A stretch of 53,591 nt of DNA. Source: a virus. The position numbers and the translations under genes were made by a program. Positions within the stretch are counted from its first letter, which is position 1; each line of letters opens with the position of its first letter. This document shows positions 18,501 through 34,134 of this stretch, in pieces. The DNA is taken from positions 1-53,591 of IMG/VR virus record IMGVR_UViG_3300020477_000033. The stretch is one strand, 5' to 3'. The notes under the pieces are model-generated. The model ran no database searches, was not told the DNA's origin, and saw only the letters and a program-made list of their open reading frames with translations.

Positions 18501-21500
18501 ATAAAAGAAACATGGTATTATGGATCAAATAATTTTAGAGACAATACTGGTTATACAGTACCTAGAGAAAGATTAGATTATAAATGGATTAATCAAGAAT
18601 TAGCAAAATTAAAAGTTAGATATAATAAAATTCCATCTTATAAACCTTTTATTAAAGACATAGAATTAGTAATTGATGCATATTTAAAGGCTAATCCTAG
18701 ATTTAGGTTTAAAGAATTAGCTAATAAAACTACTGAAGATTTAATGAAACTTGTTAACAATCATAGTAGATATATTGCAAACAAATTAACTCAAAAAACA
18801 GTAGATGGTAAAAGAAAGTTTACCCCAGAACAACTCTCTGCACTTACTCCTGAAACTTATGATAAATTTTCAAAGGATAATAATTTATTAAAATTAGAAC
18901 AAGCTATTAGATTTAGAGAAGATGCTTTAAATGTTTTATTTCAAAGAATTTCTCACTTTGATAGAACTAAAATGGTTAAACCTGAAAATAGAATAGCTTT
19001 ACTTAAATTAAAAAAAGAGATTTTGAGTAAAGGTTTAGAATCTGTTAATAAAAATGTTAAACTACCTAAAGAAACAAGTGATTTTATTAGAACACTTTAT
19101 CAGACTAATTCTGCTGATCAAATTTTAGATATCAATACTGTTAATAATAAAAAGATTGTTAAAACTAAACAAGAAGAAGTAGATACAGATATTAAGAAGT
19201 TTAAAAAAGAGCAAAAAAAATTAAAAGTTAGTAAGACAAAAAAGATTTACGGAACAGATCCAGAAGGAAAGAAAAAAGTTATTGGAGAAGAACTAGGAGA
19301 TGTTGATAATATCTTTGGAACACTAACATCTCAAAAGGAAGTATTAAAAGGTTTAGCAAGAAAGTTTAGAGATAAAAAACAAGATCCAGATGTAGTTAAA
19401 CAACGAACTGTATCAACTATTAAAAGAGCTTTTAAGAAACCATTTAGCTTTTTAGAACGTTTAGATAGTAATATTCTTGAGCCAATAACTCCAGAAAATC
19501 AAAAAGTTTTAGATGCTTTTAGAGGTTTAATAGAAAAACATCCTCAAGTATTAGAGAATTTAGATTGGTATTTTGGAAAATTTACAAAAGATAGTGAAGG
19601 AATTGTAAGAGATTTAGCTTCTATGAATAGTAAAGAGGCTCTTTTATTTGTAAAGCAATTAGAACGTTCTTTTAAACCTATGACAGGATTGGTTGGTAGA
19701 GATGGTAAGTTTAAAGAAAAACCAAGGAAGAGTGATCATGTATGGTTTTATGATTATGCTGGAGAAAGATTAGGATTTATGGAAAGTGATTTAGAATTAA
19801 AACCTATGCTTGAAAATAAAATGATGGTAAATGGAGATATTAAATCTGAATATATGGAGCAACCAATGTCTTCATTGCAGTTAATAAAAGAGCATATAGA
19901 TTTTACAGATACAATTACTAAAGCAGCTAGAGATAATATTGAGAAAACTCATGTTGGTCACTTTGGAGAAATTTTAACATCAGACAGTAAAGAACTTGCT
20001 AGACATCGTAAATTACTTGAAGAACATGCTATTAATAGTATTGAATATCTTGAAATAGGTAAAAATGAAAAGGCACGCAATAGCTTTCACAGTAATAACT
20101 ATTTAAAGAAAAAATATAAAGATTCTAAAAAGTTAATTGATCAATTACAAAATGAAGGAGTTAAAATACCTTATTTAGGTAATAATTTACCTCCTCATAT
20201 TTTTGTTCAAGAATTAATTAAGAAACATAAATCATTTACAAAATGGGTGGCAGATAGTTATATAGAATCTAGGCATAAAAATATTAAAGAAACTTTTCTA
20301 CATATTAGTTCATGGAATCCAAAATTCAAAATGTGGTTTCCTAAAGATGAATTTTCTAGAAAAGAAAAGTATACAGAAAAAGATGGATATAAGTATCAAA
20401 TTCAAGAACTAGAAAAGATGTTTTATGATAAAGAAACTGGTCTTTTTAAGCAAGATAGATATATAGCATATTATTATTCCCTTATGAACTATCAAGGAGC
20501 ATATATAAAAAGAGATGGAAGTACTAAAAAATCTGATATTACTGGACAGTTTAATAATAGAGAAATATCTCAACACTTACTACCAAGTTTTAATGATATG
20601 ATATTTATAAAAAATGCAATGAAAATAAAAGATAGAGCACAAGATAAATTTACAAAATGGGATTTAAGTAGACCTGAAAAATTAACACAAAAACAAAAAG
20701 ATAAAGTTAAAGAATGGGTTATGAGAGAAATTTCAGTAAATAGTGATTATATGAAAATGTTTGATAACTCTATAATTGAATCTGGTTATCACCCTAGAGT
20801 TGGTCATACAGAAATACAAAAAAATGCAGAAAAAATTCAAGAACTAATGTTAGAAATTGCTGATAAAGAAATGGCTACTATAACCACTCCAGATAAGTTA
20901 GATCCAGAAATTAGAAATCAAATGATTCTTGTTAATCCCGAAAGAGGAAGACCTCTTACTTTTACAGAAGCTAAACAATTACAAAAAGCAAAGATGTTAT
21001 CTTTAACTCAAGCAGAGTTTACTAATTCTGCACTTGAAGGACAGATGGGAAATGAGTTAGCAATTAGTGATTTAATGACTAGAGATAGATCTGGAAACAA
21101 TAGATACATAGGTGATTATACTCCTGCTAATATGCATAAAAGAGGACGTTGGATTATGCCTTTTTATCGATTAGATGTAGAAGCTTTAAGAAAATACGGT
21201 AATATACTCACTAAATCCCATTTAACTAATGTTACTGGTCTTAATCTTGAAATGATTGTTAAAAAATTTGATAGAGTTAATAATGTTGAAAATGATATAA
21301 ATGCTTTAGGTTGGTCTGGGTATTTAAGAGATGCTGCATTAAATATGATGGGAATGAGTCATCATAAGCCTATAGATATACATGGTATACAAGAAAAACA
21401 TAAACCGTTGTATCAAAGTTTTATCGATAATAATTTTTCAACAAAAGGTTTAAAGCTTTCAAAGGCAGAGCATGATTTAATATATGACTTTAAAAGATCT

Positions 21501-23111
21501 ATTGATATATCTCCTGATAGAAAAGCTAATTTAATAATGATGCATAAAGCCAATATCGAAAAAGCTGACAGTGCGTATTACAGAGAACTAAAAGCCAATG
21601 CAAGCCGTGTATTGAAACGTCCTAATTTAACAAATAAATACGGAAGTTTATACCACATGACTAGTGATGATGCTGTAGGTCGTAGAATGCAAGGAATTAA
21701 TGATGCTCTTGGAGGTAGATTATTTGGTCCACTATCTAGTGATCCTGCTCAAGCACGTTCTCAAGTAAATGAGGGAATTAGATATCTTAGTAATTTAGAA
21801 GGTAAGTATGAACTTGTTTCTTTATTGTCTGCTCCTAAAACTCCTATTACTAACTTTATAGGTGGTTTTGGTAATCTTATTACAGATGTTGGTTTAGGTC
21901 CTGTGAGAAAATCTTTTAATACTGAGTGGATGTTGAAGAATCTTTTTGTAGAGTATAATTATGAAACTGCACAAATGGAGCGTGCTACTTATGAATATGT
22001 TGATCCAGTAACTTCAAAAGTTGAACAAAAACCAATGACTAATAGAGAAGATATATTTAACTGGATGGATGGTAGTATTGGTGTATTTGACACTACACAA
22101 TTGCAATTAGTTGCTGTAGAAAAACATTTTGGTAGAAATAATGCAGCTACTGTAGTTAGAGAGTTTGCAAATAGATTAGCAGACGCTAGAGCATCTGGTT
22201 ATGATATGGTAACACCAGCAAGTAGAAACAGATTAAGAGAAGCTACTATGTGGGAGTTAGCAAGAGAATATAAAGTAACTGAATCTATTACTGATATGGG
22301 TGCTTTCTTCATGAGAGAATCTGAAAGAATACTTAGAGGACAAGCTTTCTTATCTGGTATGATATTCCATAAAACTAATACATTATCTACTCCTGATGGT
22401 TATGCTACTCGTAATATTTCATTTAACAATCCTGGGTTAATTAAACTATCTTTAGATACAGTTAAAGCTTCTCAGTTCCTTTATCAAGCTACTGAAAGAT
22501 CTAACTTCTCAAATACTGCACTAGGTCGTGTTATGACAAGATTCCAGCCTTATGCTTGGAATAGTATTAGAAGAAGACTTGATATATACAGAAATGCTAG
22601 ATCAGTAGGTTTTGACTATAAAAAGATAGCAAGTAAAAGATTTCAAAGACAAGTATCTTTTGATATGTTCTCTTTAGCACTAGCAAATGCATTTGTTGCA
22701 AGTATATTTGAATATTCACTATCACCACCAATGAATTGGATGCAAGATACAGCTCAATTACTATTAGGTGATGAAGAAGAAAGAGAACGTGCTTTCTTTA
22801 ATCAGTATCCATCTAAAGTGTTAGCACCATTGCAAGCAGTTACTCCACCAGCTGCAAGATTTATATTACCACCAATAACTGCAACTATAAATGGTAGTTA
22901 TGATAACTTCTTTAAGTTCCATGCAGCTACATATTTTCCATTTGGTAGATTAGGACGTGATCTATATAGAACATATCAGAGTCCTGCAATGGCTGTAGAT
23001 TTTATGACTGGGCTTCCTTTACATAGAATACATCAGTATAGACGTGATCAGATAGAAGCTAATAACGAAATTGAGAATATTGAGTCAGAAATTGACGATT
23101 CTGATGTTTAA
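12510..23111 (+). CDS. Giant polyvalent virion protein: candidate crAss-like virion RNA polymerase with an inserted SLOG domain (3533 aa)
   Basis: The start is GTG 12510 just after the previous stop. Residues 1-350 contain Gly/Ala-rich hydrophobic segments. Residues about 473-710 look like a circularly permuted YpsA (SLOG) domain: NSGMQSGAD (492-500), TGGW, a 'NDNDATVIFA' strand and INIAGHG. Residues about 1500-1560 read RVPNSAVSG ... RFGGFV ... DGADNDFDEAFVF with Asp at 1552, 1554 and 1556, matching the metal-binding loop (GSDFDID-type) of the crAss-like single-chain RNA polymerase; a conserved AAVGKESMGGAINSL follows near 1630. The rest is helical, with SLLSAPKTPITNFIGG near the C-terminus. 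It would be ejected with the DNA to transcribe early genes; that is inference. A giant structural protein without polymerase activity is the alternative. Confidence 0.7.
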   Translation: MATPYNTQIDYLTNLRDVGIINPQEYLKRLDTSYRMKPNLFSEEDLDYIEKEHKKYDIKWNRDLQESGASLLSVVNQFTSGLVEGFTTIGWADEPDTAVERIAGSFGHLLGFAPDVIASVLSGGRYIPIAAAKQASKKSQKAVREGISKVASKSPSLLRKEISPNTFALRSIPMLVADKVLEHSKAALGSTNLTSLGFLSRGLLGKASVRNAAHQAVHLGVALGVSSWKDGPKAMIDATMHGAAAGAIFGSIGNYVRIGDMLRSKDTAQMGREAVKLASRQLYQDPNKYEAIEMLMKGSLGASFQGGLTTLQGAPLPDQIYEYLLGFFFGASAKSAGFMNRTKFINQRFFPSNENISRVKEKWQADPEYQALPKVDRQYIDSYLDSIRRQQLNIINSDRPSWAQGLSQTIKDIAKEKNIDLTEPITIEKKIILDNEQKKIEKIKTPKKDTVDNEGINVQMPEIPKNKEETFKMAYRKETGTETKNNLVASINSGMQSGADYGGLKGGKRRGAKTGGWITSDFKTKISGSKKQKDQLIKDYGLKLVTEPITVEVERGKKRTFPPESYPNRTIRNVNDNDATVIFALPEHIDKSVGTNKTIGYASEGKWVRGSSKKQLKSASYLSGYRPHIIITGGYKSKKMADIEAQNLTDFILNVTKKNNGKIPNINIAGHGNDRVPGNKTWKSFEDYVDYIVDKSLEGKVETSPIPPNVDNGGVEITASNPRPPKTVKDYAKERMGDYKHEISKGIEEIENASSDHSSKTILSRPTNIAAEYIVSQNKKLRLDTVKLEMNDLIEKSTSDIKFFEKLDIKFGVSIPENIRKELGRAYLIKRNLKEQTDHGIQNLKSFKKEPYKEEFNHEQFPSEDIDGTILVKYRTENKHDRHVKGTVEDVSYILSSVQIDQKQGRAFKTIDNVQGPILYKMEYKPILTHQVPKGKKEPITGKKAWEYTLTKEGLDAINQKLEKDGYYVSRAYKDKGVLEVTPYAISEKNPYKDNYLSKDDQVSVLKELWQSDRKPKTDVERKTLISNLYYLLREHSLKGIKGHGKITADSLIKGIREVRANDNQKLNYKDVVEYNKYASLDWATNIPLNRKDYNIYDAGSKTKAVYVPDLPAEVHKVIMLGNTDSVHLRRQDVFDAVAKRHYIDAKDDKIKLTAFRGARNDVNLIKNKIGTERVSDALDKLMHKFNIHDIFYESGGKTNKGNFNLARLRFNEKTKEYFFEGGINDKNIVDYNWNEWYIDLGVRQNSSHMNRGASVGKQLYDSISMSRIRGESIERGDRLDKAVSDWIDLSNAGDPVLGTEIINNFRAGKELTRDFDIHMVPEDVIIEMKNDVTRGGIDNPVFKQVLKKIVESNELDISSQVWDPQKSADLKKDIMEQYQVSEILNMHDYDPLVFTTHPYKDFINKALFRHLVNKKRQPRDPDAFQTTLNGLNAEELVLHKPRKNQGPNKIRTGVGDGLFMMGRDVRDKPVRIPQIKAIKTMGQAWDMLRNTKLDKTEAIAIQEVLDGQVLLRVPNSAVSGARVPRFGGFVNRDGIGLYVGPKDKYYMDGADNDFDEAFVFRNIPKELREEFARNQEFLKDEKGELINLETPPDWLIKDGYFTPYEAKTSNDVLIDMVTPWPRLEAGRSAAVGKESMGGAINSLDRQLSVMDAVINTKITEPSREIPYMLVNVTKTDNKQNAYFDNSFDHRIVLLDGKGKPMTSTNLKDYDVLLKQFEVDALKIKNGYADSPKYLNIPSNFQIAEMTWNKYFRVQRLSQGVWKDLGKHSSISWLNTTSTQAKYKNKAGKWIPVRKIQEIQNLADTYKLIHGMPSMKEINESPRVFNEFISNPNYRYDLQVYNTAKKLADRTDWTIDSFEYLQSYRGFEHLYDNSIEPYDFVLRMTTELQKRLINSKYFDKYGLIPNYRHETQAIFSLKRSGNFMFKNLKDIANKNYKTLAMTPTREIENHFDNALNLNVADYVSDMFITKVAKSRLTEMNVHEAFNLIKDIQTRVNQIKETWYYGSNNFRDNTGYTVPRERLDYKWINQELAKLKVRYNKIPSYKPFIKDIELVIDAYLKANPRFRFKELANKTTEDLMKLVNNHSRYIANKLTQKTVDGKRKFTPEQLSALTPETYDKFSKDNNLLKLEQAIRFREDALNVLFQRISHFDRTKMVKPENRIALLKLKKEILSKGLESVNKNVKLPKETSDFIRTLYQTNSADQILDINTVNNKKIVKTKQEEVDTDIKKFKKEQKKLKVSKTKKIYGTDPEGKKKVIGEELGDVDNIFGTLTSQKEVLKGLARKFRDKKQDPDVVKQRTVSTIKRAFKKPFSFLERLDSNILEPITPENQKVLDAFRGLIEKHPQVLENLDWYFGKFTKDSEGIVRDLASMNSKEALLFVKQLERSFKPMTGLVGRDGKFKEKPRKSDHVWFYDYAGERLGFMESDLELKPMLENKMMVNGDIKSEYMEQPMSSLQLIKEHIDFTDTITKAARDNIEKTHVGHFGEILTSDSKELARHRKLLEEHAINSIEYLEIGKNEKARNSFHSNNYLKKKYKDSKKLIDQLQNEGVKIPYLGNNLPPHIFVQELIKKHKSFTKWVADSYIESRHKNIKETFLHISSWNPKFKMWFPKDEFSRKEKYTEKDGYKYQIQELEKMFYDKETGLFKQDRYIAYYYSLMNYQGAYIKRDGSTKKSDITGQFNNREISQHLLPSFNDMIFIKNAMKIKDRAQDKFTKWDLSRPEKLTQKQKDKVKEWVMREISVNSDYMKMFDNSIIESGYHPRVGHTEIQKNAEKIQELMLEIADKEMATITTPDKLDPEIRNQMILVNPERGRPLTFTEAKQLQKAKMLSLTQAEFTNSALEGQMGNELAISDLMTRDRSGNNRYIGDYTPANMHKRGRWIMPFYRLDVEALRKYGNILTKSHLTNVTGLNLEMIVKKFDRVNNVENDINALGWSGYLRDAALNMMGMSHHKPIDIHGIQEKHKPLYQSFIDNNFSTKGLKLSKAEHDLIYDFKRSIDISPDRKANLIMMHKANIEKADSAYYRELKANASRVLKRPNLTNKYGSLYHMTSDDAVGRRMQGINDALGGRLFGPLSSDPAQARSQVNEGIRYLSNLEGKYELVSLLSAPKTPITNFIGGFGNLITDVGLGPVRKSFNTEWMLKNLFVEYNYETAQMERATYEYVDPVTSKVEQKPMTNREDIFNWMDGSIGVFDTTQLQLVAVEKHFGRNNAATVVREFANRLADARASGYDMVTPASRNRLREATMWELAREYKVTESITDMGAFFMRESERILRGQAFLSGMIFHKTNTLSTPDGYATRNISFNNPGLIKLSLDTVKASQFLYQATERSNFSNTALGRVMTRFQPYAWNSIRRRLDIYRNARSVGFDYKKIASKRFQRQVSFDMFSLALANAFVASIFEYSLSPPMNWMQDTAQLLLGDEEERERAFFNQYPSKVLAPLQAVTPPAARFILPPITATINGSYDNFFKFHAATYFPFGRLGRDLYRTYQSPAMAVDFMTGLPLHRIHQYRRDQIEANNEIENIESEIDDSDV

Positions 23112-24549: not shown

Positions 24550-26340
24550 TTATTGTATTTCTGTTTTATTAAATGTGAAAGTATTGTAGTCAAATTCTGC
24601 AATCATTTCAAATCTGCCTTCATCTCTAGATTTCTCAGAGTTGATGACTCTATGAATTTCGTTACGATTTCCCTTAACTACAAGAACTTTATCTGCTTTC
24701 TGTACAACATTGGTAGAACCTTTTAAAGAGTGTAATCCTACAACTCCTTGAGAAGCACTAACTTTATTGATATGATGTACTGCAATAACAATAGTATGAT
24801 TTCTTTGAGCTATGCCCTTTAAGCCATCTATAATATTGTTTTGCTTTTCTATGTCTGATGCTTTGTAATTAGATTGCAATTCATCAGTAGTATCTACAAC
24901 TAGAACATTTGGTTCATGTTGAGCTACTATCTTTTTAACAGCTTCGATATCTGGTGCTATAGTAACAATCTTAATATGTCCTAATTCATCTTGAAAAGAG
25001 ATCTCTGGATTATTTTTGTATTGATCAATAACCCATTGAGCATTCTTCTTTTTTGCAATTTGAACAAATCTTCTGAATGTTAATATTTCGTTCATTTCTA
25101 GTGATAGAAATAAAGTATCTTTTTTAGCTTTTGCTACAATGTTCTGAACAAAAGCTGATTTACCCATTCCTGTATCACCACTACAAATTACTAATTCACC
25201 TGGTTTAAATACAAAACTGTTACAGTTAAATATATCTTTCAGATCTATAGACTTCTTAGTCATATCATTTTCTATGTATGCTTTGAAGTAATCTTCAAGT
25301 GCCATAACATCTTTAATGTCCATCATGTAATCTTTTCTTTTAAAGTGAATACATTTTGGATCACAGTATTCTGCCATAATAACATCTTGACAACCATACA
25401 TATAGTTTTCTTCATATATATTGCTAACTGTTCTAGTTACTTCATCTGGATCGAGTTGTCCATTAGCCCAATTTATCATACCTTGTAAGGTTACAAGATA
25501 GGGAATACCTGCTCTCTTGTAAGAACTTGACATACGCATTATCTTTGTATTTCTGGAACCTTGTGTAGGTCCTTCATTAAAGATATGTTGTACGCAAGTA
25601 ACAACAGATGTAGTATCCCCTGTCTTGTTCGTATTGGATTGAACAACCGATGGTGAAGTAATTATGTACTTTTGTAAATAAGGTTCTACCTCTTTATTGG
25701 TATTTAAAGTATTGTAGAATCCTTCTTTTGATTTTGCAAAATTAGTATAACTTCTTTTAGAAGTTGCTATTTTACAAACATCACTATATGATAAGTCCCA
25801 TATGTATTGTATTGGTATGAATACTTTATACAACTTACTTTTTGGATTTAATGACCACTTGGATCTAATGATTCTAGTTTTGTCATATATATTATCTCCA
25901 AAAGTAAAGTATTCTTTCATTGTAGCTTTAACTTTAGTATGAAGATTTTTACTTGGTTGAAAACCAAATACATTTTGTAGTTCAATGTGATAACCATTTC
26001 CACTAAACCACAAATTAATATCTTCTTGCCTAACGTCAAAGTCAAACAACTCATTCAAGCAATATCTAACATATTCTTGGAACTTATCATCGTTGTGATC
26101 TGATTTGTCTATATCTATAGTAATAGTATCTACGTAAGCTAAACCGTCAAAACCTTTAACTGTTTTGTTAGTTAATACATAGTCACCAAAGGTTGAGTCA
26201 AATGAATAGTATGATCGGTACATTTCTTTACCAAAACTATTCTTTTCTTCAATCTTGTTATAGACATCTAATGTAGCTACTTTATTTCTATTTGATAGAC
26301 TACCTTGGATCACTTCGATTACAGTGTTTCTATTTTCCAT
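24550..26340 (-). CDS. AEP primase-RecA-like helicase fusion (596 aa)
   Basis: The N-terminal half has archaeo-eukaryotic primase motifs: TITIDIDKS (D76, D78) and WFSGNGYHIEL (S113-H118). A Cys/His cluster (C317, C326, C330, H332) looks like a PriCT-type zinc site. The C-terminal half is a DnaB/RecA-type ATPase with Walker A GDTGMGKS (388-395), Walker B VLVVDTTDE (479-487) and a downstream HHINK. The protein should prime and unwind DNA at the fork. No DNA polymerase was found, so host polymerase is probably used. The start overlaps the 86-residue gene upstream by 22 bases. Confidence 0.88.
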   Translation of the reverse strand: MENRNTVIEVIQGSLSNRNKVATLDVYNKIEEKNSFGKEMYRSYYSFDSTFGDYVLTNKTVKGFDGLAYVDTITIDIDKSDHNDDKFQEYVRYCLNELFDFDVRQEDINLWFSGNGYHIELQNVFGFQPSKNLHTKVKATMKEYFTFGDNIYDKTRIIRSKWSLNPKSKLYKVFIPIQYIWDLSYSDVCKIATSKRSYTNFAKSKEGFYNTLNTNKEVEPYLQKYIITSPSVVQSNTNKTGDTTSVVTCVQHIFNEGPTQGSRNTKIMRMSSSYKRAGIPYLVTLQGMINWANGQLDPDEVTRTVSNIYEENYMYGCQDVIMAEYCDPKCIHFKRKDYMMDIKDVMALEDYFKAYIENDMTKKSIDLKDIFNCNSFVFKPGELVICSGDTGMGKSAFVQNIVAKAKKDTLFLSLEMNEILTFRRFVQIAKKKNAQWVIDQYKNNPEISFQDELGHIKIVTIAPDIEAVKKIVAQHEPNVLVVDTTDELQSNYKASDIEKQNNIIDGLKGIAQRNHTIVIAVHHINKVSASQGVVGLHSLKGSTNVVQKADKVLVVKGNRNEIHRVINSEKSRDEGRFEMIAEFDYNTFTFNKTEIQ

Positions 26341-26579
26341 CCTTTTACCTTACCATTCGTATTGTGTTGTATTTCAGTTAAACTAATACCATGTTTATCT
26401 AATACATTACTTTCACGTATCTTTCTAAATGTCCTAGAATAAGAACTTGCAGTATGTACCTTACCTGTTGTAAGTCTTCCATAAACTGGTATTGCTTCTT
26501 CAAATTCATAACTATAGAAGTTAGCATTGGATCTAACACGACTTTTGATCCAGTTAACTACTATTTCTTCCATAGTCAT
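26319..26579 (-). CDS. Small winged-helix-like protein (86 aa)
   Basis: The pattern of two helices, a turn and a beta hairpin (VVNWIKSRVRSNANFYSYEF, then SSYSRTFRKIRES, then IQHNTNGKVKGWKIE) suggests a winged-helix DNA-binding fold, as in small replication adaptors. Start at ATG 26579 overlaps the SSB stop (TAATG); the gene ends inside the primase-helicase start. It lies between SSB and helicase, so a helicase-loader or origin role is possible but not shown. Confidence 0.5.
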   Translation of the reverse strand: MTMEEIVVNWIKSRVRSNANFYSYEFEEAIPVYGRLTTGKVHTASSYSRTFRKIRESNVLDKHGISLTEIQHNTNGKVKGWKIETL

Positions 26580-27130
26580 TAGAATGGTAAGTCATCAGAT
26601 TCAACTTTATCACCTGCATCATTATTGATTAATGTGTCCATGACATCTTGTTCCATCTGTGACGGTTTCTTATAGTCTTTTGGATAACCTTTCTCAACTT
26701 GTTTCATAAACAACTTTTCAAGATCATCTTTTTTGTTAAGACTAGATACAACACCCCATGTATTTCTCTTATATTTTCCTGTGGAACTATAAGTAATACA
26801 TGCTATTTCCTTATCAACTAAAGCTTCTAAAGATTTAGGTGATAAAGTACCATTGTCAGAAACATTTAAGTCTGCTCCTGCAGCTAGGTATAAGGTATTA
26901 AGATCTGCTGGAAATGCCATATCTACAACAACACCATTAGTATCTTTATCAAAGTTCTGATTAACAAAGCATGTATACGTATAGCTGTTATCTTTGTCTT
27001 CTAATGATAATTTAATACTAAGATCAGTGTATTGACTTTCCATTACTTCAGCGTCAGTAATTTTACACTCATTAACGAAATAGTTTCTAAGTGTTGTTCC
27101 TGATGCTACTTTTGTACCTGTAATTGCCAT
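26579..27130 (-). CDS. Single-stranded DNA-binding protein (183 aa)
   Basis: The chain has a beta-rich core (about 1-125) and a Glu/Asp-rich linker, ending DDLPF at 179-183, the acidic tip by which SSB proteins recruit partners (compare DDDIPF). It lies between the annealing-protein module and the primase-helicase, which is the normal setting. The core does not obviously match classic OB-fold SSBs, so it may be a distant phage type. Start codon follows GGAGAAC, one base after the upstream stop. Confidence 0.75.
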   Translation of the reverse strand: MAITGTKVASGTTLRNYFVNECKITDAEVMESQYTDLSIKLSLEDKDNSYTYTCFVNQNFDKDTNGVVVDMAFPADLNTLYLAAGADLNVSDNGTLSPKSLEALVDKEIACITYSSTGKYKRNTWGVVSSLNKKDDLEKLFMKQVEKGYPKDYKKPSQMEQDVMDTLINNDAGDKVESDDLPF

Positions 27131-27131
27131 A

Positions 27132-27410
27132 TTATTGTTCTCCTGTTAGTGGATCTTCACTATCAGCTGCTTCCATATTGTCCATAGCATGATCCAAATT
27201 ACGTTCTCTAGCAGCTTCTTCATATTGTGTATTCAATTTTTCTAAATACTGTTTGAAGTTTTGTAAACATTTTGACATGTCTATAGTTCCTTCTTCTAGT
27301 ATAGGTAAATTGTACAATATAAAGTGGCCTTGACTGTTTACAAAGTTTTCAATGTCTCCTGGCTCTGCAGTTACATTGTATCTTTCAACAGATTCTTTAT
27401 TTACTTCCAT
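27132..27410 (-). CDS. Acidic recombination-cluster protein (92 aa)
   Basis: The start is taken at ATG 27410, which overlaps the end of the annealing-protein gene and follows GAGGAGG; an ATG five codons upstream lacks that RBS. The protein is acidic with a long helix (MSKCLQNFKQYLEKLNTQYE) and a tail ending EDPLTGEQ. No family is recognised. Its position between ERF-type protein and SSB suggests a partner of one of them. Confidence 0.55.
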   Translation of the reverse strand: MEVNKESVERYNVTAEPGDIENFVNSQGHFILYNLPILEEGTIDMSKCLQNFKQYLEKLNTQYEEAARERNLDHAMDNMEAADSEDPLTGEQ

Positions 27411-27975
27411 CTGCAACCTCCTCAACTGGTGCTGGGATAGACTTTGTAAAGAAATCCATAGTCTTATTGTATCTTACTTTAGTATCGTAAAATCCAGCAG
27501 ATCTTCTGTCTCTGTATGTTTTGAAATGTTCTTCACCGATATATGGCTTAACTTTCCTAGATAATGTATCTAACTTATCTAACATATCTACAGTTACAGC
27601 TGATTTCTTTTGTGCTGCTTTTGCATTTTCTACTTCTTCTTTAGAAGCAATTGCAAAGTCACCACCAAATCCTGCAAATGCAAGAGCTCTTCCAACTGCA
27701 GATGTTTCACAATTTTCTAGAGCTGATGTTTTGTTTACAAATCCAGTATTATCACGTTCGGCTGCATAGCCTGTGTAATAAATTTCTGGTTCTTGTAATG
27801 GGTTTGGGACCACCGTTGCTTTAACAACATATTCATTGCATTGTTCTCCGCTTGGTGTGTCTGTTATAGAACTTACTGAGACTAATTCAGTTTGAATTGT
27901 AGATCCTGGATAATCTGATAAGAATCCAGCTAATCTATCTTTTACTTCAGTATATTCTTTACCTTTAAACTTCAT
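27397..27975 (-). CDS. ERF-type single-strand annealing recombinase (192 aa)
   Basis: The signature of the ERF/Sak-like annealing family is clear at residues 84-111: SALENCETSAVGRALAFAGF then DFAIASKEEV. An upstream strand GYAAERD fits as well. These proteins coat single strands and anneal complementary DNA, used for phage recombination and for forming concatemers. The C-terminal 80 residues are a helical tail. It starts behind AAAGGA and opens a recombination-replication series (annealing protein, acidic protein, SSB, winged-helix, primase-helicase, nuclease). Confidence 0.85.
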   Translation of the reverse strand: MKFKGKEYTEVKDRLAGFLSDYPGSTIQTELVSVSSITDTPSGEQCNEYVVKATVVPNPLQEPEIYYTGYAAERDNTGFVNKTSALENCETSAVGRALAFAGFGGDFAIASKEEVENAKAAQKKSAVTVDMLDKLDTLSRKVKPYIGEEHFKTYRDRRSAGFYDTKVRYNKTMDFFTKSIPAPVEEVADGSK

Positions 27976-28151: not shown

Positions 28152-28604
28152 TTATTTTTCTGCTTTAGAAAGCGGAACTAATTCCGTTTCTTCAAAATTA
28201 CAATATTCACATATTGCTATCATTTCGTAATCATTGTCTATGTATGTGCTGCCATCATTTGGATTTATAAACTGTTGTATATAAACTCCTGGAGATATGC
28301 AGTTACTACATACTAAGGTATCATCGTCATTCTCATAGAATAAGTCAGTATTTTTAATTAGTTTTATGTTATCAACTAATTTTTTTCTATCATCTTGTGA
28401 TAAGTCTAATTTCCTATCATCCAATATATTTGATAGTGTTCTAAGTATATCTACATATAAAGCTTCAACTTTATATGCTACAACAAGCTTAATAAGAACA
28501 TAAAACATGTGATCTTCCTCACCATTAAAGTGATTCTTTTCATCGTGCCACATGTAATCTAATATTTTATGTATTTGATTTGTGACTTCAGTAGTATATT
28601 TCAT
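28152..28604 (-). CDS. Zinc-ribbon-like protein (150 aa)
   Basis: The first 90 residues are helical. The last 60 hold two CXXC pairs (VCSNCIS and ICEYCNF) 36 residues apart, a four-Cys zinc-ribbon arrangement. No family is recognised. It is the last gene of the leftward stretch that contains the ubiquitin-like genes and is one base from the 77-residue gene before it. The zinc site could bind nucleic acid or protein. Confidence 0.6.
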   Translation of the reverse strand: MKYTTEVTNQIHKILDYMWHDEKNHFNGEEDHMFYVLIKLVVAYKVEALYVDILRTLSNILDDRKLDLSQDDRKKLVDNIKLIKNTDLFYENDDDTLVCSNCISPGVYIQQFINPNDGSTYIDNDYEMIAICEYCNFEETELVPLSKAEK

Positions 28605-28605
28605 A

Positions 28606-28839
28606 TTAACCTGCTTCCTGTTGTAGCTTTTGAACTTTTAACTTATCACCTTCTTCCTTAGCTTTAAGTATCTCTGATCTCTTTTGGTGTTCAATTGCTA
28701 CAAATTCTACTACAATAGATAGTTTATTGATATCTAACTCACCTGAATAACTAACTTTTACTAAGAAACCTAAGTCTCTTAATTTATTAACTGATTCAGA
28801 TACTTCTTTTTGTAGTTCTAAGATTTTATTATCACTCAT
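28606..28839 (-). CDS. Small coiled-coil protein (77 aa)
   Basis: A helical N-terminus (LELQKEVSESVNKLRDLGF), a short strand pair and a C-terminal charged helix (SEILKAKEEGDKLKVQKLQQ) are visible. No family is recognised. AGGAG precedes the start. It directly follows the E1-like gene, separated from it by a large hairpin (28859-28917). Confidence 0.5.
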   Translation of the reverse strand: MSDNKILELQKEVSESVNKLRDLGFLVKVSYSGELDINKLSIVVEFVAIEHQKRSEILKAKEEGDKLKVQKLQQEAG

Positions 28840-28858
28840 TTGTTTCTCCTAAATGTGG

Positions 28859-28917
28859 GGCGGTAGTAGTAATGGATATAGTAGATCGTAGTGAAGAGTA
28901 TAAGCACTACCACCGCC
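28859..28917. other. Large intergenic hairpin
   Basis: GGCGGTAGTAGT (28859-28870) pairs with the CACTACCACCGCC arm (ending 28917) over about 12 bp with one mismatch, filling most of the gap between the E1-like gene and the next leftward gene. It is GC-richer than the surroundings. Candidate RNA-processing site or attenuator. Confidence 0.65.
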
Positions 28918-28924
28918 ACCTATA

Positions 28925-29596
28925 TTATTGATTATCCACAACTCCAGATCTTCTCATTGTAAGACTTGGAAAGTGAAATGATAACTCTTTATAGTAAACA
29001 CTATTAGTAAGTAATTTCTTTATAGTGTCTGAAATAAAGCTACCAGACATGTTACTGCAATAACTTGTTGCTTTTGCATTACATGGTTCTGGATCACCTT
29101 GTTCGTCACTATACCAGTGTTTAATATAAGCATTTAAAGTAGGACTTGCAAGAACTACTTGGTGATAATGCTCTGCTCCCATTCTACCATCTATTACAAA
29201 AGCTGGTCTATCTGAGTGCAATATTATCTCCATAGCTTCTTTTCTTGAAGCCATTGAGTCAAATCCTAATACAACTACATCGTTAGTAGCTGAGTTTCTA
29301 GGTCTCCAGTCATTTACATTAAATCTATTATTGAATGTATTTACTGCACAATCTGGATTTATCTTCTTTAGCTGCTCTCTTAAAGCTTCTACTTTTAACT
29401 TGTTAAGATCTTCACGAGTATATTGCGATACTCCTATATTCTCAGTGCCAACTGTATCCATATCATACAGAACAAGATTATTAGCACCCATTCTTACTAG
29501 CTGAGTAGCAGCAGCACTACCTATTGCTCCACATCCTAGTATATGGTAAGTATACTTATCATAGTTATTAACTAATCCTTCGTATCTTTCTCTCAT
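28925..29596 (-). CDS. E1/ThiF-like activating enzyme (223 aa)
   Basis: The Rossmann ATP site is clear (ILGCGAIGS, G21-G26), followed by YDMDTVGTENIGVSQY with D45, D47, N53 and Q58, and then LGFDSMASR (D113), all as in MoeB/ThiF/E1 enzymes. These adenylate the C-terminal Gly of a ubiquitin-like or sulfur-carrier protein. A Cys in EPCNAKATSY (C172) is in the right place to be the thioester cysteine. The length is near that of minimal ThiF proteins. It shares an operon with a JAMM protease and a Gly-Gly protein, as in bacterial ubiquitin-like and PRTRC-type clusters. Confidence 0.88.
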   Translation of the reverse strand: MRERYEGLVNNYDKYTYHILGCGAIGSAAATQLVRMGANNLVLYDMDTVGTENIGVSQYTREDLNKLKVEALREQLKKINPDCAVNTFNNRFNVNDWRPRNSATNDVVVLGFDSMASRKEAMEIILHSDRPAFVIDGRMGAEHYHQVVLASPTLNAYIKHWYSDEQGDPEPCNAKATSYCSNMSGSFISDTIKKLLTNSVYYKELSFHFPSLTMRRSGVVDNQ

Positions 29597-29832
29597 TTTT
29601 TGTTCCTCCTATACTTTAGAAACTGTTTGTATTCTTTGTGAAATTGCATTATCCAGGGTAATCTCCTGTAGACTCTAGGGTTCCATCCTTCAAAGTACCA
29701 CCATCCATTTCCTGTTTCTTTATGAATGGCCTTTCTAGCTTCAGCTTCTGCTTTCTTAGTCTTGAAAGGCCACTCTTTGGATTTGTACTTTTTGATAGGA
29801 TTACCATTATGGTCGTATGATTCTCCTTTCAT
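29593..29832 (-). CDS. Small basic aromatic protein (79 aa)
   Basis: A basic protein rich in Trp and Tyr (GNGWWYFEGWNPRVYRRLPW), with an N-terminal Lys-rich part and a Lys/Arg tail. It overlaps the E1-like gene by ATGA and lies two bases after the JAMM protease stop, so it is translated with both. No family is recognised; a substrate or adaptor of the neighbouring enzymes is possible. Confidence 0.5.
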   Translation of the reverse strand: MKGESYDHNGNPIKKYKSKEWPFKTKKAEAEARKAIHKETGNGWWYFEGWNPRVYRRLPWIMQFHKEYKQFLKYRRNKK

Positions 29833-29834
29833 AG

Positions 29835-30689
29835 TTAATTACCCCACAAATTAAGTTGTTTTTTAACTACAGTAATTAAGGTAGCAGCATTAAATCCATC
29901 TTTATTTGTTGATGCTAATTTGTCTATCTCTCTTTTTGTAGTTTCTTTTACTCTTAATTCACTTCTGTTTCCTTCTAGTTCTTCATTTAATGCAGTAATT
30001 CTCTCATTAAACTCTTTATACTTGATAGTTTCACAGTAGTAATCAGTAAGCATGTCATCAAGAACAGATTCTAACTGTGTATATTCCTGATCCATTTCAT
30101 TCACTTGATTCCAGTAATTATTATTGCTATAATAATAGTTACTTGGAATTATTGGTTTATGCTTACTAGCTATTTTTACAGTAGGTATATCAGAACATAA
30201 TTTCTTATATTCTTTAACTATACTTTTAGGTATTTTCTTTTCTGGCCTTATAATATCTATAGTTAAGTCTTGGTGTGCCTCTATTGGTTGCCAAATATTA
30301 ACTCTAAATAGATATTCTTCTTTCAGGTTAACTACTAACGACATACTGACACTACCAGTTTTAGTAGTGTCAATAGTTGCTAGGTCGGTACCTGACCAGA
30401 AAGCTGCCATAGTATGATGACTATGCCACCATACAAATACTATATCTTTACCAGCATGCTTTATTGCTGTTTTAGAATAGTATTTTGCTAAGGCTTCTTT
30501 ATCAAGTATAGTGTTACTACCACTAACTTGTTGTTTAAGGATAACTGGTTCAGACAATACAAAGTCACCATCATTGTTCTTAGATGCTATTAACATACCA
30601 CCTATTTCTGACTGATCTTCTTCCCATGCCACTTTGGCATACATTATTATCTTGTCCCAGTCTTGACTATCCATTTTGAACTTACTCAT
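29835..30689 (-). CDS. JAMM/JAB metalloprotease (284 aa)
   Basis: The zinc site is exact: E28 in SEIGG, then H89-S-H91, seven residues, S99, two residues, D102 (WWHSHH ... FWSGTD), the H-x-H-x7-S-x2-D motif of JAMM deubiquitinases. Such enzymes remove or trim ubiquitin-like proteins. Residues after about 170 form a long helical tail. The start is ATG 30689, which overlaps the upstream stop (ATGA) and has an AAGGAG RBS; an in-frame ATG 33 bases further upstream would lie within the neighbouring gene. Confidence 0.92.
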   Translation of the reverse strand: MSKFKMDSQDWDKIIMYAKVAWEEDQSEIGGMLIASKNNDGDFVLSEPVILKQQVSGSNTILDKEALAKYYSKTAIKHAGKDIVFVWWHSHHTMAAFWSGTDLATIDTTKTGSVSMSLVVNLKEEYLFRVNIWQPIEAHQDLTIDIIRPEKKIPKSIVKEYKKLCSDIPTVKIASKHKPIIPSNYYYSNNNYWNQVNEMDQEYTQLESVLDDMLTDYYCETIKYKEFNERITALNEELEGNRSELRVKETTKREIDKLASTNKDGFNAATLITVVKKQLNLWGN

Positions 30690-33193
30690 CGGTTGTTTCT
30701 CCTTCTTATGTGTGCAGACCATTCTGCTCTACCTTCTTCCGTGGTAAAGTCAAATGAACTGCTATTTGCTTCATCCTCAGCAACTCTTTCTGATATTATA
30801 TTATCAAGGAAATCAGCTACTGTTTCTTCTGTATCTACATGCACTTCCTCAGGTTCATGCACAGCTTCGTTAATTTCTTCTCTTTGCATTTGAGATATTA
30901 CTCTAGCACAAAGATCGTAAAGAAACATTTCAAGAGGGTATTCACCTTCTGACATACTTTCTTCATACTTAGTTACGAAGTGGTAGTTTTGAGGATCTTT
31001 GCTTGCTTTTATTTCAAGATATGTATCTGTAAATACTTTATACATATCTATTACTGACAATGTATAATCTGATTCATACCTATAAGCTGAATGGTAATTT
31101 CTAAGTATAGGCCTTGATTCTGGGTTAGCAGCCTCTCTTAGCATCTTTCCATATGTATTTTCTTCAGATTGTAGAATTGCAGTGTCTTCTAGCTCCTCGA
31201 TATCACGATTGACCTGGTATTGTGTATTTTTCCAGTTTTCAACTTTTTCTGATTGATATTCGAAACTTAATGTCTCCTGAATTACTTCTTTGATAAAGTA
31301 TTCATCAAAGTTTTCTGATCCTGTATGTATTACATTATCTAAATCAGGTGCATTACTATCTCTTCTACTTCTACCGTATCCTCTATATCTACTGCCCATG
31401 TGATCAGGCTTTTTAGATCTAAAGTATCTGAATGCTGCTTGTATTTTGTTGACATACTCACTTATATGTTGAAAATAGTATCTATCATCAGATTTAAGAA
31501 GTGCGATACTTGTTAAATCAAAGTTAACTGATCTACAATCTTCTACAAAGTCAAAGTATCCAAATGGTCTGCTAATCTTTTGACCTAGACCATTTCTTAG
31601 TAGTAACTGACCAGCAGCCCAGTCAGTACTTCCTCTCTTTTCTCCCATACCTTCAGAATCTGGAGGTAGTGTTAGTATACAGTTGTTTAGAGAGTTTAGT
31701 GGATTTGTTCTGTCATTGTAGTAGTCCATCCACTTTGTTAAGAGAATTCCTAAGCCAGTAAAGTTACCTTTTCTACCAGCCTGATAGATATCATTCTGAA
31801 GGTTACCAAAGCAACAAGCTTTTGGCATAGAGTGAGTAAACTGCCACTCTCTGTCATAATTTCTATCTCCATTTTGAGTGAAATGTTTCTTAAGTTCACC
31901 CTCTCTTATCATACCTTCTTTCTCTTTTCCAAACATGTCCTTAAACAATTTACTGAAGAATTTCTTCTGAGTAAGTACTCCCCAGCCAGATTGTCCAGTT
32001 CTACTTGTTCTGTTAATGAATGGAAAGAAGGTTCCGTCATTATGTCCGTGATATATTCCTGATACATCAAATCCTGACATACTGTGGTAGCTACCTTCTT
32101 CAAAGTCGTAATTGCTGTATCCAGGGTCTTCTAATTCACTTCGATACATTCTTTGTTGAGGGTCACCACCTAACCAAGTTATTGATCTATCTCCCAACAT
32201 AAGTGGTAGATTACTATGATGATCCTGTCTATTTAGCATTTCATGTAACCATTCTTTTCTACTTTCATATGGTTCTGGCTTATTATCTTCCATTGGACCA
32301 TATTTACAAAAGCTATTTTTAGAACTGTCATATTCTTGCCAAATACCATACCAGTCATCTATCCATCTTTGTACTAGTGATGTTAAGTGATATCTAAATA
32401 ATACTGTTACAGGTTCTGTATCTATATCACCTATATATTCACTATCATTTGTATGGTATTTTATTGTTGGATTATGAAAATGAACTGCTACAATAAACTC
32501 TTTATGTAAATTTCTATACATATCTAGTGCTTCTATGTAAGGTTCATCTATTTTGTATCTGTTTCCGTTGTAAGTCATTCTTGATTCTGATGTTGATTCA
32601 GATCTTTGTATTCCTTGCAAACTAACAAAGTATGGATGTATGCTAATATTTTCTGAATTTTTATACATTTCAATTCCAGAATCTACATTATTAAAGAACC
32701 ATTCTAGTGCTTCATCTAGAAAGTTTTCCATTCTTTTTCTTTCAGACTCATCTGTTAAGTTGTTTTTACCAACACTTTTAATTTGCTTTAATGACGTCTC
32801 TATTGAATCTAAGTCATTTTGTGCTCTCATCCATTGTCTTCTAGTTGACTTTGGTCTTCTAACAAACTTAAGTCCAATAGCACCACCTTTATTGAATTGT
32901 AGTAATCTATCAACAAACAATTGTTCTATTGTATTGACAGTTCCTCTTTGCCAATTAAGTTTATTAGTTAGTCCTATATCTTCTAAAGGACTAAGCACTG
33001 ATCTATTATTGTTAAGATATCTTGGTCGTATCCAGTCATTATTGAATTGTTCTATCTTTTCCATTAACATTTTAAGTGGACCATCTAGAACTACCTTAGA
33101 TATCATTGCACCTGACATGTGATCAGATGATTTGCTTGGTTTATATTCTTCTATATCCAAACTTCTTCTTCCATATGTGTGTTCTAAGTTCAT
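30686..33193 (-). CDS. Unknown 835-residue protein, candidate E2-like or substrate-binding partner
   Basis: No family can be assigned with confidence. The protein is acidic and aromatic-rich. Near its middle it has SMPKACCFGN (C460-C461) followed by a helix (NFTGLGILLTKWMDYYND) and NPLN, which in outline recalls the active-site region of E2-like proteins in bacterial ubiquitin-like clusters (a Cys followed by GN and helices). The C-terminal 100 residues are acidic and contain a coiled coil. It lies between the candidate ubiquitin-like protein and the JAMM protease with ATGA coupling. It may instead be a virion-related protein. Confidence 0.55.
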   Translation of the reverse strand: MNLEHTYGRRSLDIEEYKPSKSSDHMSGAMISKVVLDGPLKMLMEKIEQFNNDWIRPRYLNNNRSVLSPLEDIGLTNKLNWQRGTVNTIEQLFVDRLLQFNKGGAIGLKFVRRPKSTRRQWMRAQNDLDSIETSLKQIKSVGKNNLTDESERKRMENFLDEALEWFFNNVDSGIEMYKNSENISIHPYFVSLQGIQRSESTSESRMTYNGNRYKIDEPYIEALDMYRNLHKEFIVAVHFHNPTIKYHTNDSEYIGDIDTEPVTVLFRYHLTSLVQRWIDDWYGIWQEYDSSKNSFCKYGPMEDNKPEPYESRKEWLHEMLNRQDHHSNLPLMLGDRSITWLGGDPQQRMYRSELEDPGYSNYDFEEGSYHSMSGFDVSGIYHGHNDGTFFPFINRTSRTGQSGWGVLTQKKFFSKLFKDMFGKEKEGMIREGELKKHFTQNGDRNYDREWQFTHSMPKACCFGNLQNDIYQAGRKGNFTGLGILLTKWMDYYNDRTNPLNSLNNCILTLPPDSEGMGEKRGSTDWAAGQLLLRNGLGQKISRPFGYFDFVEDCRSVNFDLTSIALLKSDDRYYFQHISEYVNKIQAAFRYFRSKKPDHMGSRYRGYGRSRRDSNAPDLDNVIHTGSENFDEYFIKEVIQETLSFEYQSEKVENWKNTQYQVNRDIEELEDTAILQSEENTYGKMLREAANPESRPILRNYHSAYRYESDYTLSVIDMYKVFTDTYLEIKASKDPQNYHFVTKYEESMSEGEYPLEMFLYDLCARVISQMQREEINEAVHEPEEVHVDTEETVADFLDNIISERVAEDEANSSSFDFTTEEGRAEWSAHIRRRNNR

Positions 33194-33233
33194 ATGTTGT
33201 TACTCCTACATTAGTTTTTTATTGGTTAATATT

Positions 33234-33286
33234 AGAGACTACATAGTAGAAAGCAATGCCCCTATATGCTTCCTACTATAGTCTCT
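33234..33286. other. Large intergenic hairpin
   Basis: AGAGACTACATAGTAGAAAGCA (33234-33255) pairs with the arm TGCTTCCTACTATAGTCTCT (33267-33286) with only two or three mispairs and an 11-base loop. It fills the gap between the candidate ubiquitin-like gene and the 835-residue gene. Confidence 0.7.
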
Positions 33287-33320
33287 TTACTGATCTAGCG
33301 TGGCTGAAACCTAACCGCTA

Positions 33321-33614
33321 TTAAATTGACAACAGTTCCTGGTAGTATCTTACGAGTCCACCAGTTTTGTTCTCATTTACGAAAGTGATATACAATGTGC
33401 CATCAGCGTTTTCGTAGTCAGTAAAACTTTTTGCTTCGTCAAGAGCTTGTGTCTCTCCTACGTATGTTACAGCATCACTGACATTTGTGTGTCCTGCTTC
33501 TGATAAGTGACTTCTTAGAGTTCTAAGATTCACTACTTCAGAAGGAACATCTAATGATGTAAAGTGCTGAGCACCTGGCATCATTACCTTTAAAACAACA
33601 GAATTTTCACTCAT
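33321..33614 (-). CDS. Candidate ubiquitin-like (beta-grasp) protein with C-terminal tail (97 aa)
   Basis: The pattern strand-turn-strand (VVLKVMMPGAQHFTSLDVP), helix (LRTLRSHLSEAG), then strands (AVTYVG, LYITFVNE) is that of beta-grasp folds. It ends NKTGG at 82-86 followed by an 11-residue tail (LVRYYQELLSI). A Gly-Gly followed by a tail is how unprocessed ubiquitin-like proteins look before a JAMM protease trims them. The gene is in the same operon as the E1-like and JAMM genes. Sequence similarity to a named family was not recognised, so the fold is inferred. It overlaps the upstream gene by eight bases and has a GGAG RBS. Confidence 0.6.
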   Translation of the reverse strand: MSENSVVLKVMMPGAQHFTSLDVPSEVVNLRTLRSHLSEAGHTNVSDAVTYVGETQALDEAKSFTDYENADGTLYITFVNENKTGGLVRYYQELLSI

Positions 33615-34134
33615 TGGTTGTTTCTCCTATAGTTAGTCGTTGTTGTTGAACTTTATAAGATACTGCAAGAGTAAAGGCACTAAATAACAACGAATTTAGT
33701 TCTCTTTTTAGCAAGTCTCTTATAACTATCTCCTTATCAGACAATATAGTTGCTGTTAAGTAGACTAACAAATCTAGTAGCTCATCTATTGCTTCTTCTA
33801 GATTGTCTCTTGAATGTTCTTCACATTCTTCTTTAGTAATTGGTACTTCTGCTAAATAGCTAGACTTACCAACTTCTAATCTTTTTTCAATTCTTTTTGA
33901 TATCCATCTAATCATATTATTTAAATTAGTAGGATAATCTTTCTCTTCTAGTTCAACTAGTAGAGTATTGTTTTCAAGGGTAAATATGTTTTTCCATATC
34001 TCTCTTGTATCATAATTATTACATAAACTAAACATTTTTCTGTTTAAGTGAAGTAATATTCTATCGTTATTCATTAGTTTCTCCTCTTTCATTTGAAATA
34101 TCTCATCTGCATAATCTTCCATGGTAAAGCTCAT
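33607..34134 (-). CDS. Helical unknown protein (175 aa)
   Basis: An all-helical protein with an acidic segment EEAIDELLDLLVYLTATI (about residues 112-129) that resembles the metal-binding helix of MazG/all-alpha NTP pyrophosphatases, though the full set of motifs is not seen. It starts behind AAGGAG and overlaps the candidate ubiquitin-like gene. It may belong to that cluster or be an unrelated early gene. Low confidence in any function. Confidence 0.5.
   Translation of the reverse strand: MSFTMEDYADEIFQMKEEKLMNNDRILLHLNRKMFSLCNNYDTREIWKNIFTLENNTLLVELEEKDYPTNLNNMIRWISKRIEKRLEVGKSSYLAEVPITKEECEEHSRDNLEEAIDELLDLLVYLTATILSDKEIVIRDLLKRELNSLLFSAFTLAVSYKVQQQRLTIGETTNE

Follow-up and report, generated by a model that had tools for sequence, protein, structure and literature searches.

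A conserved gene cassette of tailed phages encodes a putative ubiquitin-like conjugation and deconjugation pathway

Background

Bacterial Bil operons carry their genes in the order Ubl-E2-E1-JAMM, while QbsE, QbsD and QbsC constitute a sulfur-carrier system with JAMM trimming. The Bil components are BilA (Ubl), BilB (E2), BilC (E1) and BilD (JAMM) (Hor et al. 2024, as cited in PMC12660748 and PMC12135933). Iyer et al. (2006) distinguished operon types 6a-6e, of which 6d comprises Ubl, JAB, E1, E2 and an alpha-helical protein (PMC1779556). In type II CBASS, Cap2 is an E2-E1 fusion and Cap3 is a JAB protein (PMC10097602). The lambda-type tail assembly protein I is a Ubl accompanied by the JAB/NlpC protein K (PMC1779556), and the Caldiarchaeum operon encodes ubiquitin, E1, E2 and a small RING protein (PMC5654768).

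Here we describe a locus within a 53,591-nucleotide viral DNA (IMG/VR record IMGVR_UViG_3300020477_000033; "the window" hereafter). It was originally predicted to resemble Bil, PRTRC and CBASS-associated systems. Three parts of the Bil-type set of Ubl, E2, E1 and JAMM are present in the phage cassette, and a protein that we call X is a putative E2. As in Bil, the small modifier, putative E2, E1 and JAMM peptidase are encoded by four separate genes. Unlike Bil, which is carried by the defended host, the cassette is virus-encoded, has the order Ubl-X-JAMM-E1, and lies in a replication module; its X proteins are 330-890 aa long, with no E2-family profile match detected. Like the Iyer types and the PRTRC plasmid cassette, it is an operon on mobile DNA that combines a stand-alone Ubl with C-terminal Gly, a JAB, an E1 and a Cys protein with a putative relation to E2. 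The likeness to PRTRC did not extend to the sequence models, as the window proteins scored far below their cut-offs (17 bits against PRTRC_A, cut-off 101.8; 23.7 bits against PRTRC_ThiF, cut-off 144.75). No other PRTRC protein was recognized in the window region, and neither Prok-E2 nor Prok_Ub from Pfam matched the phage cassette.

The cassette resembles CBASS in its predicted activation by an E1 and deconjugation by a JAB protein, but the phage E1 is a 223-aa protein on its own rather than an E1-E2 fusion, belongs to another clade, and is accompanied by a separate modifier gene. No nucleotidyltransferase match indicative of a CBASS cyclase (CD-NTase) was obtained among the ten region proteins scanned. 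Although the lambda-type I and K proteins are also a phage-encoded Ubl and JAB, they occur among tail genes without E1 or E2, whereas the window cassette has all four parts and sits among replication genes. The Caldiarchaeum operon is likewise a compact prokaryotic conjugation operon, but it is cellular with eukaryote-like sequences, and the phage X is not recognizable as a eukaryote-like E2. Finally, the ThiS/ThiF, MoaD/MoeB and Qbs systems have a beta-grasp Gly-Gly protein and an E1, with JAMM trimming in Qbs as well; the phage cassette differs in its invariant-Cys partner X, its separate E1 clade, and the lack of recognized sulfur genes nearby.

Results

Organization of the locus

All open reading frames of the predicted leftward operon were located on the minus strand. 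In order of transcription, they encode a 175-aa protein (33607..34134), a 97-aa predicted ubiquitin-like modifier precursor with Gly-Gly (33321..33614), the 835-aa protein X (30686..33193), a JAMM/Prok-JAB isopeptidase (29835..30722), a 79-aa protein (29593..29832), the E1/ThiF-type adenylyltransferase (28925..29596), a 77-aa protein (28606-28839) and a 150-aa CxxC/CxxC (zinc-ribbon) protein (28152-28604). The last two genes, downstream of E1, fall outside the conserved cassette. The 835-aa reading frame is open, and its stop overlaps the likely JAMM start in an ATGA; translation of JAMM is likely to begin at 30689, giving 284 aa, rather than at 30722. Promoter-like matches in the region were as numerous as expected from shuffled sequence. 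As X and JAMM overlap and the JAMM, 79-aa and E1 genes are almost contiguous, the run is likely expressed as a single transcript.

The E1 and JAMM proteins

The E1 matched Pfam ThiF (PF00899) at 4.8e-23. The ATP site and candidate cysteine predicted for this protein were both intact, as the GCGAIGS loop (G21-S27, 29516-29536) and C172 (29081-29083), respectively, and D45, D47, N53, K68, D113, R118 and C172 were invariant in 135/135 E1 homologues. A midpoint-rooted tree of 35 sequences (23 phage and 12 cellular, the latter a small outgroup of ThiF, MoeB, TcdA, multiubiquitin and CBASS E1s) separated the phage E1s from the cellular ones as a single clade with a bootstrap of 100. Where 12/12 cellular E1s sampled have the Arg of the SNLxRQ motif, 23/23 phage E1s have V, I, G or N instead; the adenylation chemistry of the phage enzymes may therefore differ. 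R4 and R138 are 99-100% conserved across the phage E1 family and may stand in for the missing Arg.

The JAMM protein scored 26.1 bits against Pfam Prok-JAB (cut-off 25), and a BLAST search with the window protein against phages returned no match. Its predicted signature was found exactly: HSHHTMAAFWSGTD conforms to H-x-H-x7-S-x2-D (H100-D113, 30384-30425). Together with Glu39 (30606-30608), the signature residues H100, H102, S110 and D113 were conserved in 98-100% of 147 JAMM homologues.

The small modifier

Gly85-Gly86 (33357-33362, minus strand) of the predicted 97-residue Gly-Gly protein is followed by an 11-residue tail, LVRYYQELLSI. When 49 diverged small proteins of the window group were aligned, Gly-Gly was the sole feature invariant in all 49. 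The number of residues after it varied from 0 to about 18, and 21 of 65 distinct sequences ended exactly in GG. Since many modifiers that already end in GG are still accompanied by a JAMM gene, the role of the JAMM protein appears to be more than maturation.

Direct family scans of the window 97-aa protein gave no match; only family alignments did. Pfam ThiS (PF02597) matched 12/49 homologues (best 7.5e-6), and the moaD and ThiS models also matched. The top PDB sequence match was MoaD (1fm0, E 0.047), followed by the ubiquitin-like domain of Dsk2, all of these being weak. Profile matches of the family thus point to a ThiS/MoaD-type beta-grasp protein, consistent with the beta-grasp-like pattern noted originally, and the window protein is assigned to this group through its family.

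The counterpart in crAss-like phages was linked to the window-group modifier by profile comparison (hhalign E 1.2e-5). These crAss-type modifiers have an invariant Ser-Gly, not Gly-Gly, and then an extension of about 130 residues. In one crAss-like phage (L140:2968-4171) the modifier reading frame is split: the first ORF stops two residues past Ser-Gly (KKIKSGKF), and the C-terminal extension is a separate ORF after a gap of about 530 bases. This could be an inserted element or a natural fission.

Protein X

The 835-aa protein had been proposed as a candidate E2. Direct family scans of it returned no match, and no Pfam or NCBIfam E2 family profile matched X. In the window group, Cys461 (31811-31813) and Pro498 (in TNPLN, 31700-31702) were invariant in 67/67 sequences and Trp488 (31730-31732) was conserved in 99%; Pro391 (32021-32023) lies in an FPFI motif, all on the minus strand. 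The motifs begin with (H/F)P(Y/F)I, followed after 13-70 residues by CxG and, after a further 27 residues, by W and then (T/S)NP. X contains the E2-type active-Cys context HPx...C(L), which was spotted by eye first and counted afterwards, and the HPx/CLG/W/NP order resembles that of E2s in four lineages. In the crAss group, Cys198, Ser181-His182 and an ES..G.P motif were invariant in 58/58 sequences. The X proteins of the two groups were linked by profile comparison (E 5e-4) and by a Foldseek search of predicted viral structures, in which crAss-like and podovirus X matched with prob 0.96-1.0.

The AlphaFold2 model of window X reached a pLDDT of 65.6, which is moderate only, and as Foldseek with this model gave nothing, a compact X relative was modeled (pLDDT 85). 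In the compact model a six-stranded sheet is followed by the PYI loop, by the Cys, located where a strand ends, and by a pair of helices; this predicted order of elements resembles that of an E2. Neither model had a Foldseek match in the PDB, and the matches of the compact model were confined to other phage X proteins. Comparisons of X with CBASS Cap2 (E2-E1) and eukaryotic E2 by hhalign were below significance, the best local alignment to eukaryotic E2, itself non-significant, falling on the Cys motif. The candidate E2 thus proved to have an E2-like motif whose Cys is invariant, but an E2 fold or profile was found neither by Foldseek against the PDB nor with Pfam/NCBIfam or hhalign. Because AlphaFold2 and Foldseek yielded no E2 structure, we infer the E2 identity of X from its motifs and refer to it as a putative E2-like enzyme.

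X might instead be a specific substrate or another type of Cys enzyme, with the E1 transferring the modifier directly to X or to the targets, as in the E2-less archaeal SAMP/TtuB systems. The failure of Foldseek to give an E2 fold and the E1s' own conserved Cys would fit such an arrangement, which we nonetheless consider unlikely given the invariant Cys and the E2-resembling order of the HPx/CLG/W/NP motifs in four lineages.

Most window-group X proteins (e.g. L080:3043-4506) have an extra four-Cys cluster (C ... C-x4-C-x5-C) that possibly binds zinc or iron-sulfur. Window X is without the C-x4-C-x5-C cluster, which we read as lost.

Distribution of the cassette

Viral contigs were scanned with E1 and JAMM alignments, about 200 loci were fetched (some being near-duplicates or truncated contigs), and the four families were assigned by iterated HMMs. 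A survey for shared gene order had been suggested with the original prediction, and Ubl-X-JAMM-E1 recurred in 140/203 fetched loci, most of the others being without one end of the cassette. This recurrence, together with catalytic residues invariant across 49-147 distinct homologues, exceeds chance.

Two large unrelated groups hold the cassette: relatives of the window phage, and crAss-like and Flavobacterium phages. The second group includes cr111_1, cr128_1, FpV4 and the cultured Bacteroides phages crAss001 and DAC15; the crAss001 cassette corresponds to gp79-gp78-gp77-gp76. Existing annotations in this group label the E1 "thiamine biosynthesis", the JAMM "metalloprotease" and the other two genes hypothetical. 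A short-pattern, non-exhaustive scan of 84,980 cellular genomes gave a single match, which was MAG-derived, so the cassette is viral as far as seen. The window phage also encodes a terminase, a portal and a capsid of its own, for which we found no close known relative. Ownership by the phage, as predicted, is borne out by the cassette's presence in genomes with terminase, portal and capsid and by its conservation as a viral unit.

The small partners and zinc-ribbon protein originally counted as members of the set were too restricted in their homologues among the fetched loci. In blastp clusters of these loci, the 79-aa and 150-aa (zinc-ribbon) genes had detectable homologues in a sister phage only, and the 175-aa gene, directly upstream of the modifier, had homologues in about 10 (with a weak phrog_7609 match, 2.8e-4). 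No homologue of the 77-aa gene was found in any fetched locus. Most loci are without the 79-aa gene between JAMM and E1. This distribution rules out the zinc-ribbon and small ORFs as parts of the system, and we regard the 79-aa and 175-aa genes as accessory.

Directly 3' of the E1 in L225 (L225:6148-6960) and other crAss-group loci is a gene of 220-360 aa (gp75 of crAss001). About half of the loci in the crAss group have such a gene after E1, and it is possibly an extra cassette component. In the conjugative Lactiplantibacillus plasmid pLL441-1 (L212:3689-7633), a ThiF-like gene is followed by two hypotheticals and an MFS transporter, which we take as an unrelated cellular E1 context.

Diverged cassettes

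Diverged variants were found in an archaeal-MAG contig (L211:5627-8868, WSZW01000107.1) and in the Xanthomonas jumbo phage PhiXhv-15 (L224:2733-6612). The archaeal-MAG contig encodes a tandem di-Ubl, a 227-aa E2-like X, JAMM, an additional protein of 171 aa and E1. The two Ubl repeats are identical at 60/70 positions and each ends in KIDGG; their HMMER match to polyubiquitin (3e-11) adds up repeats that score about 10 bits apiece, and we did not take it as proof. Its X contains RIHPHVSHGDVCVG and has a Cys-rich C-terminus. In PhiXhv-15 the modifier is a 141-aa protein with ASGG at its C-terminus; X, of 892 aa, contains RIHPHMAVPSSQESHGSLCLG and has a Cys-rich tail, and an E1 is present as well. 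No Prok-JAB match was obtained in the whole PhiXhv-15 genome; the modifier, ending exactly in GG, needs no trimming. In both variants X bears the motif RIHPH-x(n)-HG(D/S)(V/L)C(V/L)G and adjoins E1 and the Gly-Gly protein. As these lineages have the clearest E2-like motif, they make the E2 reading of X more likely. Searches for further loci of the archaeal-MAG type or its close relatives found none.

Genomic neighborhood and alternative functions

In the window, the leftward run continues on the minus strand into replication and recombination genes (24550..27975): a primase-helicase (24550-26340; PHROG DnaB/primase-helicase, 1.7e-22), an SSB-like gene (26579-27130) and a recombinase-like gene (27397-27975), the last two labels being our own sequence readings rather than database assignments. 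Related loci again have these replication/recombination families next to the cassette, and its surroundings in both large groups consist of primase/helicase, Sak4-like ATPase, SSB-like, glycosylase and exonuclease genes. Elsewhere in the window, positions 12510-23111 form one ORF of 3533 aa, for which PHROG gave no match.

Modification of virion proteins had been suggested as a role. Because the cassette lies among replication/recombination rather than virion genes, this suggestion has no positional support and we rejected it.

The main alternative to protein conjugation is a sulfur relay, in which the small protein would be a ThiS/MoaD/QbsE-type carrier whose Gly-Gly is unmasked by the JAMM protein (QbsD-type), the E1 would adenylate it for thiocarboxylation, and X would modify a nucleotide, tRNA or cofactor. 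The nearest annotated families of the E1 and the small protein are ThiF/MoeB and ThiS/MoaD, the neighborhood is one of nucleic-acid metabolism, and sets of JAMM, ThiS-like protein and E1 without conjugation are known in sulfur metabolism (PMC1779556). Yet none of the recurring neighbors was recognized as a rhodanese, cysteine desulfurase, ThiG/ThiH or thiolase, the phage E1s stand apart from the ThiF, MoeB and TcdA sampled, and the invariant Cys of X falls within an E2-like motif. The tandem modifier of the archaeal-MAG contig, with both copies ending in GG, is moreover an arrangement typical of protein modifiers. On balance we judge a sulfur relay quite unlikely.

The cassette could also serve counter-defense by mimicking or antagonizing host Bil or type II CBASS, with the JAMM protein stripping host modifiers off phage proteins and the phage modifier competing for host enzymes. 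Host Bil systems attack phages (as cited in PMC12135933 and PMC12660748), as do host CBASS Cap2/Cap3 (PMC10097602), and for Borg elements, viral JAMM-like deconjugases have been suggested (PMC12660748). Such a role would not, however, require a phage E1 with every activating residue, nor the partner with an invariant Cys that nearly all loci having both flanks contain, and the cassette is positioned in the replication module instead of a variable accessory region. Counter-defense is improbable as the explanation of the cassette, though it may be an added role.

Discussion

We consider that the four genes probably encode a virus-encoded ubiquitin-like conjugation and deconjugation pathway. The conserved viral unit, a modifier apparently of the ThiS/MoaD group and the invariant Cys of X favor the original prediction of a phage-encoded conjugation cluster. 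The genes, their order, the conservation of their catalytic signatures and the apparent kinship between the small protein and ThiS/MoaD are read from the sequences themselves. In the proposed pathway, the JAMM protein would expose the Gly-Gly of the 97-aa beta-grasp protein by cutting off the 11 residues behind it. The E1 would adenylate this end with ATP and then hold the modifier as a thioester on Cys172. X would take the modifier on Cys461 and, in an E2-like role, attach it to targets, probably with no separate E3. No E3 was recognized. The JAMM protein would also remove the modifier from targets. As for these targets, the two large groups of phages both have the cassette in the replication/recombination module, so our best guess, which follows from position only, is phage DNA replication/recombination proteins or host factors acting there.

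More broadly, we lean slightly toward the view that tailed phages, including the crAss-like ones of the human gut, carry a complete and ancient E1-E2-Ubl-deconjugase pathway in their replication module, apart from every cellular branch sampled, and that it would represent a viral core function and not only host defense. We found no published account of such a phage cassette in the open-access PMC literature.

Bacterial ubiquitin-like systems are known as anti-phage weapons; here it is phages that carry an apparent full conjugation-deconjugation pathway. If this reading is true, it would give a function to "thiamine biosynthesis" and hypothetical genes of very abundant gut viruses. The presence of the cassette in the cultured models crAss001, DAC15 and FpV4 opens the targets of viral ubiquitin-like tagging to a direct laboratory test, and a phage cassette of this kind bears on the origin of the E1/E2/Ubl combination.
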